A stretch of DNA of 22,354 bases from a virus: IMG/VR virus record IMGVR_UViG_3300037189_027533, positions 1-22,354 of that record, one strand, 5' to 3'. Below, in pieces: positions 15,430 through 22,354 of this stretch (positions within the stretch are counted from its first letter, which is position 1; each line of letters begins with the position of its first letter). Both the position numbers and the translations under genes were made by a program. The notes under the pieces are model-generated. The model ran no database searches, was not told where the DNA came from, and saw nothing but the letters and a program-made list of their open reading frames with translations.

Positions 15430-17751
15430 ATGGCAACAAGACAAACATTGGCAGGAGCTATTAGAGTTGCTGCCTCTTTAGCATATGGGAACGATACTTC
15501 TACAGAATCATCTAATAAAAATTATGGGTCAAGTAGAGTCAGTCAAGGTGTTGGGCCATCTATAACAAGAACAGCTCAATCTACAGGTAATATTACCACA
15601 GCGCCTAACTTTTATTCACCTTTTCTTACCCCAAGTGCATTTCAAATTCCAAATGCCAGAAGAGAAGTTTATTTATGGGCAAACTGGTGGAAAAATAATG
15701 AGCCTAAAGTTTCTGCAGCTATAAACTTTTATGCAAATTTCCCTTTTGCAGGTTGGAAACTTGAATGCTCATCTACATATGTTAAAGACTATTTTGAAAA
15801 GATGGTGGATAAACTTAATTTTCAAAAATGGTTGCCAGAAATTTCAAAAGTTTATCACTTGCTTGGTGATTCATTTGTTTTATTGTCCATAGATTGCCCA
15901 CACTGCCATGGATCAAACTGGGATGAAGAAAAACAAGAGACATGTAATCACGATGGTGCTTCTTGGAAATCAATTTCAATATTAAACCCAGATAGTGTTA
16001 TGAAAACACCCGGTATGATTGATCAGCCAGGTATGTATGTTTATAGACCTTCTGCTGATGAAATGAAAATTGTCAACGAGAGACAACCAAAAGAAATTTA
16101 TGATTCAATCCCCGATAATGTAAAGAAAATGATTTTGAAAGGGGATCCTATTAAGCTAAATCCTATTTCAATTCATCACTTTAAACATGGTTCTAACCCT
16201 TGGGAAGATTATGGGACATCTATGGTTAGATCCTTATTCCCAGTGTTGACATATAAAGATAAAATTAGACAAGCCCAATTTATCATCGCTGAAAGAATGG
16301 TCCTTCCAGTTAAAGTGGTAAAAGTTGGAAATAATGAACGTCCTGCATCACAAGAAGACATTGACAGCGTTCAAGAAGAATTAGCAGCAATTGCTAATGA
16401 TCCTAACCTTACATTAGTAACACACCATGCATTTGAATTTGAATATATTGGTGCTGGAACACAAATCTTTGCAGTGGCTAATGAATTCGAAGGTATCAAC
16501 AAAGAAATTATGGATGGTTTGATGCTTAACAGCGCTTTGCTCAACGGCGAAGGACCAAACTATGCAAGTGCACAAGTTGGATTATTAGCGTTATCACAAA
16601 GATTAGATACATTCCGAAGAGAAGTGGCTAGATGGATTGAACAATGTATTTTCAAACCTGTAGCAGAATGGAATGGTTTTATTGTCGAGGGTGATCGTGG
16701 ACAAGATGAAATTGTTTATCCTAAAATTTCTTTTGAAGATCTACAATTAAGAGACAACACAGGTTTATTGCAAAATCTTGTTCAAGCTAACACAAATGGC
16801 GTTGTTTCTAATACCACCCTTATTGAAGCTTTTGGCTTTGACCCTGATCAAGAAATTGAGAGATTAAGATACGAGCAGGGTGCAAACTTCATGAATGAAA
16901 GTAATTTTGGAAATAATCAATTTTCATTAGAGTTTTCTTCTGGCCCTGTTTCTGGGCAAGGTTTTGGTGCTCAACAACCTGCAGCACCAGGCGAAATGGC
17001 CCCTGGTGGTATTCCTCCAACAGCTCCAGGTATGGCTCCTATGGCAGAAGATAAAGATCAAAACTATAGATTAGCTTCTTCAATTATCAATGAAATTTAT
17101 CAAGAGAAGATAAATTTGTATCATGACCAAAATAATATAAGAACTGCAAGTAAAAGAATCAAGTCTGCTGCTCATGAGGGATTCCTAATGTCAATGAGTC
17201 CTGTTACAGGCAGGGGAACATTAGGTCCATTACCAGAAGAATATGATGGTTTTTATGGAACCATCAACACTCCTATATTTGGCGGATATGAATCTATAGC
17301 TTTAAATTATGAAGCTGAAAAAGAAATTTTTGCTGCAGAAAATTCAGAATATGATGCTCTGAGACAAGTTGTAGCTAAGATAAAAGAACGTCCTCAAGCA
17401 AAAATGTTTACATCTCTTGAAAAACTTCTTTATGGATTATTACTTTCTATCAATATGCCATTCCCATTATATGCACAATATGCTGCTGGTCCTAGCATGG
17501 ATTATCAATTAGATTCTGCAATCCCATCACTCAAAATTGGCTTTGAAGCTGATGGTGAAATTTGGCATAACAACGTAGATAAAATTGCCAAAGATAAAAG
17601 AAGAGACACCGAATTAGCTGCAAATGGATGGATTATTCTCAGATTTACTGATAGAGAATTAAAAGATCATCCTCAAGATTGCTTAAATGTTATTCTTAAA
17701 GCAATGAAAAAAAGATCAGGCATAAGTTCTCAAGGCAAAACATTCTTATAA
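15430..17751 (+). CDS. Portal protein with C-terminal DUF559/Vsr-like nuclease-fold domain
   Basis: Residues about 60-480 read as a phage portal, the dodecameric ring through which DNA is packaged. Portal-like stretches are WANWWKNNEPKVSAAINFYA (83-102), HLLGDSFVLLSID (143-155), ILNPDSV, HFKHGSNPWEDYGTSMVRSL (250-269) and YKDKIRQAQFIIAERM (275-290). A small Cys/His insert (C156-x2-C159, C172-x-H174) may bind zinc. After a Pro/Gly linker (505-540) and RTAS (571-574), residues 660-757 match DUF559/Vsr-like PD-(D/E)xK domains: E664, D695 then 11 residues on E706-x-D708-G, H713, and RRDTELAANGWIILRF with D726. At 773 residues it is longer than usual portals (450-600), and the extra length is this domain. 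Start and TATAAG box as noted for 15418; no Shine-Dalgarno. Confidence 0.85.
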   Translation: MATRQTLAGAIRVAASLAYGNDTSTESSNKNYGSSRVSQGVGPSITRTAQSTGNITTAPNFYSPFLTPSAFQIPNARREVYLWANWWKNNEPKVSAAINFYANFPFAGWKLECSSTYVKDYFEKMVDKLNFQKWLPEISKVYHLLGDSFVLLSIDCPHCHGSNWDEEKQETCNHDGASWKSISILNPDSVMKTPGMIDQPGMYVYRPSADEMKIVNERQPKEIYDSIPDNVKKMILKGDPIKLNPISIHHFKHGSNPWEDYGTSMVRSLFPVLTYKDKIRQAQFIIAERMVLPVKVVKVGNNERPASQEDIDSVQEELAAIANDPNLTLVTHHAFEFEYIGAGTQIFAVANEFEGINKEIMDGLMLNSALLNGEGPNYASAQVGLLALSQRLDTFRREVARWIEQCIFKPVAEWNGFIVEGDRGQDEIVYPKISFEDLQLRDNTGLLQNLVQANTNGVVSNTTLIEAFGFDPDQEIERLRYEQGANFMNESNFGNNQFSLEFSSGPVSGQGFGAQQPAAPGEMAPGGIPPTAPGMAPMAEDKDQNYRLASSIINEIYQEKINLYHDQNNIRTASKRIKSAAHEGFLMSMSPVTGRGTLGPLPEEYDGFYGTINTPIFGGYESIALNYEAEKEIFAAENSEYDALRQVVAKIKERPQAKMFTSLEKLLYGLLLSINMPFPLYAQYAAGPSMDYQLDSAIPSLKIGFEADGEIWHNNVDKIAKDKRRDTELAANGWIILRFTDRELKDHPQDCLNVILKAMKKRSGISSQGKTFL

Positions 17752-17768: not shown

Positions 17769-18431
17769 ATGATAGAACTCAATGATGTTAATGGTGCAAG
17801 CAATATCACGTCAATGTTTGCACAAAAATGCCTTGAAATATTCCAAGAACCTTTAGTTGGTTGTGAAATTGGCATTGCTTATGGTGGTGGGCCAGAAAGA
17901 ATTGGTAAACTTTGGAAAGATCGTGGAATAGTTTACGGATTTGACACCTTTGAAGGTCACCCACAAGATGAAGTGATTGACAATTGTGATTTCACTCAAA
18001 AAGATGGCGGAAAAGATGCTTTTGCAGCAAGATGCATGGATAATTGGTATGAAATGTTTGGGACTGAAGCACTTACCATTGAATATCAACAGTCTCAATT
18101 AGATGCTCAAGGTTTAGATAATGTCAAACTAATTAAGGGATTAATCACTCCAGAAACAGATGTAAGTTTTATTGAAAAACTTCATTATTGTTTTATTGAT
18201 TTGGACTATCACGTTTGCATGAAAGATGCTTTTGATTTAGTTGATTCAAAAATTACAAATTGTGGATTTTTACTTTTGCATGATGTTGTCCCAGCGCATC
18301 ATATTCCTGGTTTATATGATTTGTATAATCAAATTGTAATGTCAGGTAACTATAAAATTATTTTAGAAAGTCCTAGCTCTTATATTGTAGGACTTCAAAA
18401 AATTAAAGAAAACAATTTGACTTGGATTTAG
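17769..18431 (+). CDS. TylF-like SAM-dependent methyltransferase
   Basis: This 220-residue class I methyltransferase resembles the TylF/macrocin O-methyltransferase family, which methylates hydroxyls on sugars. Visible motifs are the SAM loop VGCEIGIAYGGGPERI (30-45), the acidic ribose-binding region VYGFDTFEGHPQD (55-67), the family motif FIDLDYHVCMKDAFDLV (142-158) and LLLHDVV (168-174), whose acidic residues could hold a metal ion. Length is close to the family core (about 220-250). It lies between portal and protease, with a TATAAATC box upstream and an intrinsic terminator 24 bases downstream, so it looks like a separable cargo gene. The UDP-galactopyranose mutase 9 kb upstream raises the possibility of a shared glycan target, but the substrate cannot be told from sequence. 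Confidence 0.85.
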   Translation: MIELNDVNGASNITSMFAQKCLEIFQEPLVGCEIGIAYGGGPERIGKLWKDRGIVYGFDTFEGHPQDEVIDNCDFTQKDGGKDAFAARCMDNWYEMFGTEALTIEYQQSQLDAQGLDNVKLIKGLITPETDVSFIEKLHYCFIDLDYHVCMKDAFDLVDSKITNCGFLLLHDVVPAHHIPGLYDLYNQIVMSGNYKIILESPSSYIVGLQKIKENNLTWI

Positions 18432-18455
18432 ATGAAATAATTTTTCATTTTTTAT

Positions 18456-18487
18456 AAACCCGTGGAAAACCACGGGTTTAGTTTTTT
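18456..18487 (+). terminator. Intrinsic terminator after the methyltransferase gene
   Basis: A perfect 10-bp stem (AAACCCGTGG 18456-18465 with CCACGGGTTT 18470-18479) closed by an AAAA loop is followed by AGTTTTTT. The stem with its upstream T-run may also work on the opposite strand. Confidence 0.92.
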
Positions 18488-18554
18488 ACAGGTTTTGACA
18501 TGTAAAAAATAGAATAAAAATCAATAGTTAATTTTATATCAAAAGGAATTGCTT

Positions 18555-21500
18555 ATGTATAGGGTTGCAAAAGGCGGAGCTATAACAATCAATAGTTTTT
18601 TATCTAATGAAGATAGAAATATTGCTAGAGAACACATGCTCAAAACTGCCTCTACTAACATGCGTGAAGCTGCTAAAATTGGATTGCAATCGTTATATGC
18701 AGATCCTAATGAAGTTTTAGAAAAATACAAAGACTTTGATATCGTAAAAGAGATGCAAGCTCGCAAGGGTGCTAAACTTTTATGGGTGAGAGCAAGGGCT
18801 ATTGACGCTGACACAGTTAATGCCAATGGTGATTATTTTTCCAAAGCTGAATTATTAAAAGAAGCTGAAGTCAAAGGCGAAAAGATCCCTGCATATAAAA
18901 CATTTGAGGGAGTGCCAATCTACACTAATCATAAAAATGATGACATTGAACAAGCCAAAGGTATGGTTGTTTATGCTGAATGGGATGATAAAGAAAACTG
19001 TGTATATTGTACTTTTTTCGTAGATGAAGAAGCTTACCCAGATATTGCGAGAAATATTCGAACTGGCGTAATTCACGATGTTTCTATGGGCTGCAGCGTA
19101 TCATACGGTATATGTTCAAAGTGTGAAAATAAAGCATACTATGAAAAAGATTACTGTGACTGTTTAAAGAAATTTAAGGGCAAAACAGAACCATCCTCAG
19201 GGAAAAAAGTTTATGAGAAAAATTACGATTTAAAATTCATTGAACTTTCTTGTGTTGGTGATGGTGCTTTTGAAACTTGTGAAATTCAAGAAATTTACGA
19301 TGTAGATGATATTCTCGATGCTGCTAGAGACCTTGAAAGAAAAGCTAACGAATTAACTTGTAATATTATTTTAGCTCATCAAGGCGCTCCTATTAAAAAT
19401 AGAGCTGAATACGAAGAATGCTTAAGAACTGCGCAATCAACGGCTCAAATTGCTGTGAAACTTGCACAATCTGCTGGCACTCTTGTTGGAGGTCCACTAT
19501 TAGCAGGAGAAGGCGCAAATCAAAATTCTACAGTTAACGCTGTTTTACAAGCTCTTGGAATAGATCCTAGATCTGGTTTAAATGTATTAGATCTTATCAA
19601 TCTTTCCTTAAACTTCTTAGAAGTTTCAGTGCTTAATCTTTTTGCTAGAAAAGATAATGTGGATTTGACCCACGTTTCAAAAATATCTAAAGCAATGGCT
19701 GATTTACAGTCAACTATGCAAGATATGATTGATGAAGGGGTTGATGTTGGACAAGGAAGACCTGCTCCAATTAATCAACAACAAATTCAACAAGCTGGTC
19801 AACAAAGACCTACTGCTCCAGCAAGTTTTTCCAACTATACACTTGATGATAGTGGTGTGGGAAGAATCATGGATTTCTCAAATCAAAGTTCTGAAAGTAG
19901 CGCCATTGGTGGTGGTGTTGCTTTAGCAAGTACCAATGCTAATTTTGTTTGGGCTTCAAAGACTGGATCGAGAGAAGTTTATGCTAGTGTTAGCAATTCA
20001 AAACAACAAAATTCTATTGAAAAATTTGTAAAAAATATCTACGAATTCAAAAATGTTTTAGATAATTCAAAAGAAATTCAAAATAGTATTGATAACGTTG
20101 TAAGAGTAGCTAACGAGAGAAATAAACAAGTTAAAACAAATACACCAAAAAATAACGAGGTGGAAGGCAATCAAATGGATCATTTTGCGAAAATTGCATC
20201 TGAACAACGCAAGAAATTATCAGCTGCTGTAACTATTGATTTTAAAGTGGAAGATAATTCTGGCAATAGAGTTGTTTTGTCAACAGACGGTAGCATTACA
20301 GGCTACGTAAAAGGCGTAAAGACTGAATGGGAACCGATTTTAAATGAAAATCAGCTCAGTCTTATGGACAACGGACAAGGAACTAGAGTTGCTGCAGAAT
20401 TACTTAAAGATTTTACATCATTCACAAAAACTCATCCTTACAAAGAACCAAAAATCAAAACAGATATTTTTGAAGAAGAGTTAGCTCCATACAGACAAAA
20501 AAGTTATGATTCTCTTGGCGATGGACTATCTAAAGATCATAAAAATACGACAGATGAGACAAGACAAGAATCTCTCGAAAAATACAGAAAAAATGACGAA
20601 AATTTTGGTAATGAATTTTATTCAAAATCATTAGTTGATAGCAAACTTGACAATGCTAAACTTTACTCACAAAGAGTTAAAGATGATGAAGTTAAGAGAA
20701 CTCTTACTGAATTAGTAAATGATGCTAATAAAGGCTATCCTTCAGAATCAAGAGAAGTTGAGCTTAATCATTATCGTACAATGGGCACTGCTAAACCACA
20801 CTTGGTTATGTCTAAAACTTTAAATGCATTAGCTAAAGCTGTTGTCACTGCAATGGAAACACCAACTCAAATTATGAGAGTTGCACAAACATTAGTTGAC
20901 GAACCAATGTTACCAGAAATGATTGGTACCGCTAAAGAAGGCGAACCATACAGAGAAGAACTTACTGAAAAGAACGAGTTTTTCAATAAAGAAGTAGAAC
21001 CTGAAACTGGTGTTGCAGCTATTCTTAAACAACTTGCTGCTGAAATTACATCTGAAGTAACTGCTGCCGACCTTGCTAATGCTCTTCAAGTAGCTGTAGA
21101 AGAAGGCGAAATTACAAAAGAAGGCGTTACAAGATTAGCCGAACTTCTTATGGGTAGTGTTTCTGTTCCTGAAGAAGGACTTGATGTTGAAGCTCCTACA
21201 TCTAAAAATGAAGAACTTCGTGCTGCATTGATGAGTGCAGTTGAAGAAGATGATGATCTTATTTCAAAAGAAGATCTTAGAGCTGCAATTTCTGGTTTAG
21301 CTATGTCTTCTAAAGATACAATGGCAACTCCAGGAGAAGTTACAGATGTTATAGACAGCATGCCACAAGAAGAATTGATGGCAAGCATTGATAGAGCTAA
21401 AACTAAAACTGCAACAGATGCTAGACTTAGAGCAAGAGCAAGAAGAGAGTTCTGGGGAGTTAAAACAGCTTCTTCCAAAGATCTTAAATCAAATGTCTCT

Positions 21501-22354
21501 GGATGGTTAGCAGATTATTCCATTAATTTTGGAATTAGTTCAAGAGCTATCACCGCTGCAGCAAAAAGACTTTGTTCTGACTTTGATTTAGCAGAAAGAT
21601 TAGTATCCAAAGCGGTACAAGTTTCTGATCAAGCTAAAACAGCTGGAATGACAGTTACTCAGGATAAATCTGAAAATGTAAGATTTGTATGTAGAGTTGA
21701 AGATTTAGATGTAAATCCTACTGATGCTAACTTTGAAGAGTCATTCAAGCAAAAAGCAATCAGTGTGTTGCAATCTAATGGATTTAATGTAGATCCTAGT
21801 ACATTCACTTTTACTGACTTGAATATCTCTGCATTTGGAGACGTTACTGCTTCTATTTCCTCTAGAGTTTCTAGATCCTTCAAAGTTGACGGAAATGGCT
21901 CAGTTGAAGAATCTGGTGCTGAATTAGTAGAAGATGTAATGGAAGTGGATGATGAAGTTCCTGTTGTTATGACAGAAGCTGCTAAATTTGCAAGAGTTCA
22001 GAGAAGAAATGAAATCTTAGCTAGATACGCTCAAGTTATGGGTGGACCAGGTGGTGTTCCTGGAGCTCCTGCAGGTGCTGCAGCAGATCCAATGGGCGAA
22101 ACTCCAACTGATTATGGTGCTGAACCTGGTGTATCAGGCTTGACCACTGGTGTTGACACAGAAATGAACGAAGCTGCAGACACTGATACTAATGTACCAG
22201 GAGAAGAGCATCCTTGGGGAACTATTTGTCCAATCTGTGGAAGTGACAATACCAATATTGCAGAGGCTAATGCAGAGTGTCAAGATTGTGGAACTACTTA
22301 CACAATCGAACAATCTATCAAAGTCGTTTCTAAAGGCAGCAAAGGCAAAGCTAC
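18555..22354 (+). CDS. Prohead protease-scaffold fusion protein, N-terminal 1266 codons (partial)
   Basis: The frame is open from ATG 18555, behind AAAAGGA (18541-18547), to the window end. Residues about 70-250 are a phage prohead (capsid maturation) protease: WVRARAIDADTVNANGDYF, the catalytic His in TNHKND (H126), the catalytic Ser in GVIHDVSMGC (S177), and the closing ELSCVGDGAFETC, like the 'EiSlV...A' end of HK97-type proteases. A Cys insert (C187-x2-C190, C201-x-C203) follows the Ser. Residues about 255-540 are helical and Gln/Ser-rich. From 541 a long charged, scaffold-like region starts at an internal ATG with a strong ribosome-binding site. Residues 1225-1245 form a zinc ribbon (CPIC...CQDC). 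KTAS/KIAS sites at 30-33, 546-549 and 970-973 separate segments. It is far longer than usual protease genes (200-450 codons). Confidence 0.88.
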   Translation, partial: MYRVAKGGAITINSFLSNEDRNIAREHMLKTASTNMREAAKIGLQSLYADPNEVLEKYKDFDIVKEMQARKGAKLLWVRARAIDADTVNANGDYFSKAELLKEAEVKGEKIPAYKTFEGVPIYTNHKNDDIEQAKGMVVYAEWDDKENCVYCTFFVDEEAYPDIARNIRTGVIHDVSMGCSVSYGICSKCENKAYYEKDYCDCLKKFKGKTEPSSGKKVYEKNYDLKFIELSCVGDGAFETCEIQEIYDVDDILDAARDLERKANELTCNIILAHQGAPIKNRAEYEECLRTAQSTAQIAVKLAQSAGTLVGGPLLAGEGANQNSTVNAVLQALGIDPRSGLNVLDLINLSLNFLEVSVLNLFARKDNVDLTHVSKISKAMADLQSTMQDMIDEGVDVGQGRPAPINQQQIQQAGQQRPTAPASFSNYTLDDSGVGRIMDFSNQSSESSAIGGGVALASTNANFVWASKTGSREVYASVSNSKQQNSIEKFVKNIYEFKNVLDNSKEIQNSIDNVVRVANERNKQVKTNTPKNNEVEGNQMDHFAKIASEQRKKLSAAVTIDFKVEDNSGNRVVLSTDGSITGYVKGVKTEWEPILNENQLSLMDNGQGTRVAAELLKDFTSFTKTHPYKEPKIKTDIFEEELAPYRQKSYDSLGDGLSKDHKNTTDETRQESLEKYRKNDENFGNEFYSKSLVDSKLDNAKLYSQRVKDDEVKRTLTELVNDANKGYPSESREVELNHYRTMGTAKPHLVMSKTLNALAKAVVTAMETPTQIMRVAQTLVDEPMLPEMIGTAKEGEPYREELTEKNEFFNKEVEPETGVAAILKQLAAEITSEVTAADLANALQVAVEEGEITKEGVTRLAELLMGSVSVPEEGLDVEAPTSKNEELRAALMSAVEEDDDLISKEDLRAAISGLAMSSKDTMATPGEVTDVIDSMPQEELMASIDRAKTKTATDARLRARARREFWGVKTASSKDLKSNVSGWLADYSINFGISSRAITAAAKRLCSDFDLAERLVSKAVQVSDQAKTAGMTVTQDKSENVRFVCRVEDLDVNPTDANFEESFKQKAISVLQSNGFNVDPSTFTFTDLNISAFGDVTASISSRVSRSFKVDGNGSVEESGAELVEDVMEVDDEVPVVMTEAAKFARVQRRNEILARYAQVMGGPGGVPGAPAGAAADPMGETPTDYGAEPGVSGLTTGVDTEMNEAADTDTNVPGEEHPWGTICPICGSDNTNIAEANAECQDCGTTYTIEQSIKVVSKGSKGKA
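20157..20177 (+). promoter_or_regulatory. Internal ribosome-binding site and start codon for a nested scaffold product
   Basis: GAGGTGGAAGG (20157-20167) lies 7 bases before an in-frame ATG (20175, codon 541 of the protease ORF). This is the best Shine-Dalgarno match in the window and falls at the boundary between the protease part and the charged C-terminal region. The arrangement matches lambda, where scaffold Nu3 starts inside protease gene C. Confidence 0.65.
20175..22354 (+). CDS. Predicted nested in-frame scaffold/core protein (partial)
   Basis: This would be the product of initiation at the internal ATG, in the same frame as the protease ORF, with at least 726 residues before the window ends. 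It begins MDHFAKIASEQRKKLSAAV and contains a KIAS site at its residues 6-9 and the peptide DETRQESLEKYRKND, akin to peptides in other head-module ORFs. It also has long acidic-helical stretches (about 820-950 of the full ORF), KTAS at 970-973 and a C-terminal CPIC/CQDC zinc ribbon. In known phages such nested proteins act as internal scaffolds that the protease removes. That this one is made separately is inferred from the ribosome-binding site only. Confidence 0.5.
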   Translation, partial: MDHFAKIASEQRKKLSAAVTIDFKVEDNSGNRVVLSTDGSITGYVKGVKTEWEPILNENQLSLMDNGQGTRVAAELLKDFTSFTKTHPYKEPKIKTDIFEEELAPYRQKSYDSLGDGLSKDHKNTTDETRQESLEKYRKNDENFGNEFYSKSLVDSKLDNAKLYSQRVKDDEVKRTLTELVNDANKGYPSESREVELNHYRTMGTAKPHLVMSKTLNALAKAVVTAMETPTQIMRVAQTLVDEPMLPEMIGTAKEGEPYREELTEKNEFFNKEVEPETGVAAILKQLAAEITSEVTAADLANALQVAVEEGEITKEGVTRLAELLMGSVSVPEEGLDVEAPTSKNEELRAALMSAVEEDDDLISKEDLRAAISGLAMSSKDTMATPGEVTDVIDSMPQEELMASIDRAKTKTATDARLRARARREFWGVKTASSKDLKSNVSGWLADYSINFGISSRAITAAAKRLCSDFDLAERLVSKAVQVSDQAKTAGMTVTQDKSENVRFVCRVEDLDVNPTDANFEESFKQKAISVLQSNGFNVDPSTFTFTDLNISAFGDVTASISSRVSRSFKVDGNGSVEESGAELVEDVMEVDDEVPVVMTEAAKFARVQRRNEILARYAQVMGGPGGVPGAPAGAAADPMGETPTDYGAEPGVSGLTTGVDTEMNEAADTDTNVPGEEHPWGTICPICGSDNTNIAEANAECQDCGTTYTIEQSIKVVSKGSKGKA

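Follow-up and report, generated by a model that had tools for sequence, protein, structure and literature searches.

A conserved internal start in a giant protease gene suggests a nested second head protein in very large uncultured phages

The locus studied here raises the question of whether one very long reading frame, beginning as a capsid-maturing protease gene, specifies one head protein or two. The window, a viral contig of 22,354 bases, ends within this giant ORF (18555..22354, plus strand, as are the other ORF features given below), which runs for 1266 codons without a stop. An earlier note on this DNA described a frame of at least 1266 codons with a His/Ser prohead protease at its N-terminus, zinc-ribbon segments further on, and a lambda-like nested scaffold protein that would be initiated at ATG 20175. 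Comparison with relatives suggests that this group of very large, uncultured phages translates a second head protein, of 830-870 residues, from within the protease gene, a far larger case of an arrangement known in phage lambda and herpesviruses. The novel features are its size, its zinc-ribbon partner, how deeply it is conserved, and a probable second nested gene. The sizing and coring of giant capsids are poorly known, and a conserved nested product beside the protease and MCP provides a concrete core candidate in the lineage related to phage G and Bxz1.

The frame is indeed uninterrupted from 18555 to the contig end, and the stop that the earlier note proposed to seek downstream was found in complete relatives, whose ORFs finish after 1376-1405 codons; about 110-140 codons are thus absent from the window's copy. 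In relatives, this missing end contains a zinc ribbon and the terminus KNPSKLDVxIxWID. The window itself contains a single ribbon, CPICGSD...CQDCG (residues 1225-1246, C1225/C1228/C1242/C1245; 22227..22292), whose cysteines are invariant and which gives weak matches to Pfam ribbons throughout the family; the ribbon that relatives have past the window end is the second. The full-length ORF is preceded by an in-frame TTG at 18549 and by the Shine-Dalgarno (SD) sequence AAGGA at 18543..18547. Between the upstream genes and the ORF stands an intrinsic terminator-like hairpin with an 11 bp stem and a T-run (about 18455..18490; 1 found versus 0.1 expected in shuffles). The portal gene (15430-17751) lies upstream in the window and the MCP gene downstream in relatives, and this order of portal, protease and, further on, MCP places the giant ORF in a head module. 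The window has a weak methyltransferase-like gene (17769-18431) between portal and giant ORF; in relatives L002, L003 and L005 the giant ORF directly follows the portal. A C-terminal DUF559 / restriction-endonuclease-like domain was seen in the window's portal (residues 691-759) and in that of L005; searches of the phage G portal showed none. At the left end, positions 2-400 hold a partial adenylosuccinate synthetase-like gene, which also matches a PHROG whose name refers to the 2-amino variant and may indicate modified purine metabolism. A search of bacterial genomes found no relative and thus pointed to no host.

The prohead protease claimed for the N-terminus was borne out. Residues ~53-250 (18711..19304) match PHROG 18299, 'head maturation protease', at E 3e-15 and PHROG 2774 at E 3e-27, and are 37% identical to phage G gp19; profile-profile alignment by hhalign of residues 59-243 with the actinophage proteases gave a probability of 99.7 and E 3e-26. 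These matches support a head-maturation protease that has homologues in phage G and in the Bxz1/E3-type actinophages, with homology over the core and with invariant His and Ser motifs. His126 (in YTNHK) and Ser177 (in HDVSMG) are invariant in the relatives and so are the candidate catalytic pair. Behind the candidate active Ser there is a Cys cluster, C187-x2-C190...C201-x-C203 (19113..19163), and alignments show CxxC...CxH in the actinophage proteases. By homology, this protease would process capsid or core proteins. The structure model of the protease (pLDDT 46) was too poor for fold searching. A conserved, mainly helical region (residues ~251-400; 19305..19754), delimited by the conservation profile and modeled by AF2 with low confidence, connects the protease to a variable linker. 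In two distant relatives, inteins of ~380 aa with LAGLIDADG and splicing motifs (L086:4721-5854 and L096:4793-5932) sit exactly in the protease active-site motif, at HDVSMG|C; the window's protease has no intein at this position.

The evidence for a second start came from relatives in IMG/VR, with a non-redundant set of 26 defined as <93% identical in DNA. The purine-rich SD stretch noted ahead of ATG 20175 is present in the window as GAGGTGGAAGG (20157..20167), exactly 7 nt before the ATG, and both this Met (window residue 541) and the SD were found in 26/26 non-redundant relatives. Among all relatives examined, down to ~30% identity, the ATG and SD were retained. The mean anti-SD energy over the 26 relatives was -8.72 kcal/mol for the internal site, -6.10 for the ORF's own start and -3.70 for the next conserved Met, energies that might differ with the anti-SD of the actual host; all other conserved Mets of the ORF were at -3.7 or weaker. 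When 827 codon columns were ranked, the internal site and its immediate neighbours came out on top. Synonymous codon reshuffling of 11 deeper representatives gave -4.92 +/- 0.42 versus the observed -9.15, with 0/3000 reshuffles reaching the observed value. The same result, 0/3000, was obtained with eight further relatives, some only ~30% identical, of which the three most distant have weaker SDs (-6.4 to -6.6) that are not individually unusual. Synonymous variation reaches its ORF-wide minimum at the internal site, with ratios of 0.32 and 0.45 in 9- and 15-codon windows, and the conservation extends into the first codons past the ATG. The residues encoded over the SD vary between relatives (AEG, AGS, AGG, AEV, ARS, VEG, SGD), which points to selection at the nucleotide level, the counts being of sequences rather than of independent events. 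Reduced mRNA folding was looked for around the internal start and not seen in comparison with the remainder of the ORF.

Every locus recovered with the nested-part query had the nested part behind the protease in one open frame, and no standalone or split nested part was found among the loci recovered with the nested-part alignment. The earlier note had named homologues with the two parts as separate genes, and no conserved internal site, as the observation that would tell against a nested start; among these loci separate copies were not encountered, and the site is kept. By these comparisons the internal start is under strong purifying selection, and initiation at 20175 is very probably real. 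The locus thus resembles the nested protease/scaffold class in having an N-terminal protease and a predicted co-terminal shorter product from an in-frame start. We found no earlier report of this internal start in open-access papers. Where ORFs of this kind are annotated as one 'hypothetical protein' or 'protease', a major product is probably being overlooked.

The nested ORF (20175..22354) has 726 codons in the window, and its product, which would begin Met-Asp-His-Phe (MDHF), would be 833-867 aa in complete relatives. It is net acidic (-51 in L005) and combines two beta domains, the first of them small and followed by a long helical body, with one or two C-terminal zinc ribbons; its structure model is of moderate confidence (pLDDT 63). 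Sequence searches of isolated phages gave no match, those of PDB sequences gave nothing past weak zinc-ribbon matches, and fold searches gave no significant match. Position beside the protease and MCP, together with the known logic of protease/scaffold nests, leads us to favour, by analogy and with some reserve, a procapsid core or scaffold component. Of the earlier note's nested scaffold protein, then, the conserved and selected start stands, while the scaffold identity lacks a homologue of known function and faces an equal or better candidate in gene 2, the next gene downstream in relatives, past the window end (L005:12350-13951).

Gene 2 encodes 530-600 aa, strongly acidic toward the N-terminus (net -60), with a zinc ribbon. 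It too has an internal start in frame, MTKQALAxRRA at codon ~180-230, conserved in 24/24 relatives; the SD of this site has an energy of -6.49 versus -3.53 +/- 0.50 in synonymous reshuffles, none of which (0/3000) reached the observed value. When neighbouring genes were scanned for Met and SD, the strong conserved sites were the gene starts plus one internal site, that of gene 2. Two adjacent head genes therefore appear to hold nested starts. A motif, MTxxAxxARRxxRxxIL, occurs in L005 in both the nested product (residues 598-621) and gene 2 (residues 208-231); the match covers just 24 residues, with a probability of 6%, and might, weakly, indicate a common capsid- or core-binding helix. Rather tentatively, and at somewhat less than even chances, the lineage might build a multi-part core for very large capsids from long and short forms of two head proteins, encoded by tandem nested genes (the giant protease ORF and gene 2), with ratios set by the strength of the internal starts.

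Gene 2 also bears on the best surviving alternative, in which the internal start is real but its product is a lasting virion protein, whether inner-head, ejected or at a vertex, and gene 2 supplies the scaffold. The acidity of gene 2, its place nearer MCP, its own conserved nested start and its occupation of the slot held in Tunturi_5 and BcepSauron by acidic genes of 528-568 aa after the protease all favour this arrangement, and make gene 2 a rival scaffold candidate. Further, a scaffold would not usually have zinc ribbons and folded domains, and 830-870 aa is large for one. In known systems, however, the partners fused to proteases are scaffolds, and the nested part is itself net acidic and largely helical. 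We regard a lasting virion protein as possible but the less likely role.

The preferred explanation, which we hold with moderate confidence, is that one frame gives two head-assembly proteins, of which the nested form is a core component, and that the protease releases itself. Initiation at 18555 would yield the long protease-plus-core protein of ~1400 aa, and initiation at the stronger internal site would yield just the C-terminal 830-870 aa, a product that probably outnumbers the long form. The shorter protein would most likely be a component of the procapsid core, into which the long form would bring the protease through the C-terminal part that both have in common. Once the head is assembled, self-cleavage in the linker around GGGVALA|S would free the protease, which would then process core and capsid protein. 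The proposed cleavage region is a cassette, GGGVALAS..VWAS..REV(F/Y)AS (REVYAS in the window; 19908..19988, alignment columns 452-478), which is near-invariant in the otherwise variable linker upstream of the internal start. N-terminal sequencing showed that the phage G MCP matures from 282 to 255 residues (PMC5646251), and when mapped on the sequence this loss of 27 residues places the cut after VALA. The tetrapeptide VALA occurs both at that site and in the linker cassette, and from this match, of just four residues that are frequent in proteins, we infer cleavage of the linker at VALA.

The same cassette, with its VALA, VWAS and VYAS elements, would also suit an account in which only the long protein is translated, any short form is a proteolytic product, and the purine stretch plays no part in initiation. 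We consider that account highly improbable, as it leaves unexplained the invariant ATG, the correct spacing, the nucleotide-level conservation of the SD and the lowered synonymous variation. Least probable of all is a role of the SD-like stretch, between the domains, in programmed pausing or frameshifting instead of initiation. Internal SD stretches are able to stall ribosomes and to promote frameshifts, but the frame is open in all relatives, each has an ATG at start spacing, and conservation runs on behind that ATG.

Cultured phages have related proteases either as short genes standing alone, like those of phage G (gp19), Tunturi_5 (gp331) and BcepSauron, or within giant fused ORFs. In phage G, Tunturi_5, BcepSauron, Arash and D69 the protease genes encode 287-491 aa and are followed by separate genes. 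The proteases of phage G, Tunturi_5 and Arash stop near or before the point of the internal start, with a separate gene downstream; Arash (491 aa) and Vibrio D69 (471 aa) fall between the two forms, their proteases being about as long as the N-terminal part in the window and slightly overlapped by a separate next gene. Bacillus phage G resembles this family in MCP (47-48% identical), portal (30%) and the protease gp19, and differs from it in having no giant fusion: its protease, gp19, is a separate gene of 300 codons followed by separate acidic proteins; the phage G proteins compared were gp19, gp20, gp21 and gp27 (MCP). An assignment of phage G gp21 as protease and gp22/23 as scaffold was rejected, since the protease is gp19 and gp22/23 resembles a cell-wall hydrolase by sequence.

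The giant fused form is found in actinophages, of the Bxz1 type and others: Bixzunavirus I3 gp103 (1408 aa), Tonenili (1236), Stormageddon (1089), Pupper and Skog (1082), Finch (989) and Rhodococcus E3 gp77 (895). The earlier note had thought a fusion this large unusual. Annotated actinophage protease ORFs of 895-1408 aa mean that size alone is not new, although their C-terminal part is not detectably related: comparisons of the nested part and of gene 2 with that actinophage region found no homology. Like the ORF studied here, the actinophage giants have the homologous protease domain, including the Cys cluster, in a fused ORF upstream of MCP. They also have an internal Met in the context MARxxLAxRG or a similar one, and in 6/7 an AAGGA lies 7-9 nt ahead of it; this Met was seen in L008, L009 and L048-L051. 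Reshuffling gave 36/3000, a weak to moderate signal, and the actinophage giants possibly carry an unannotated nested start in a cultured group.

Beyond this lineage, the lambda scaffold is made from an internal in-frame start, and lambda gpC belongs to a different protease clan (S49/ClpP-like). Herpesvirus UL26/UL26.5 encodes a protease-scaffold fusion and a co-terminal scaffold-only product, with self-cleavage between the two; a separate transcript supplies the short form there, whereas an internal ribosome site would serve in the giant ORF. No homology to lambda C/Nu3 was found in PHROG, Pfam, PDB sequence or fold searches, in which remote homology could be masked by the weakness of the models, and 'lambda-like' thus holds as an analogy. 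The nested part also differs from Nu3 in its 830-870 aa and zinc ribbons, its scaffold role being putative. In lambda C/Nu3, P2 gpO and Mu a single gene codes for protease and scaffold (PMC8508860), and that paper cites Shaw and Murialdo (1980) for the overlap of lambda genes C and Nu3. The herpesvirus scaffold is removed by the protease (PMC4379554). In sum, the giant ORF would work like lambda C/Nu3 and herpesvirus UL26/UL26.5, by analogy rather than by demonstrated homology to either, suggesting that the logic of protease/scaffold nesting recurs with unrelated partner proteins.
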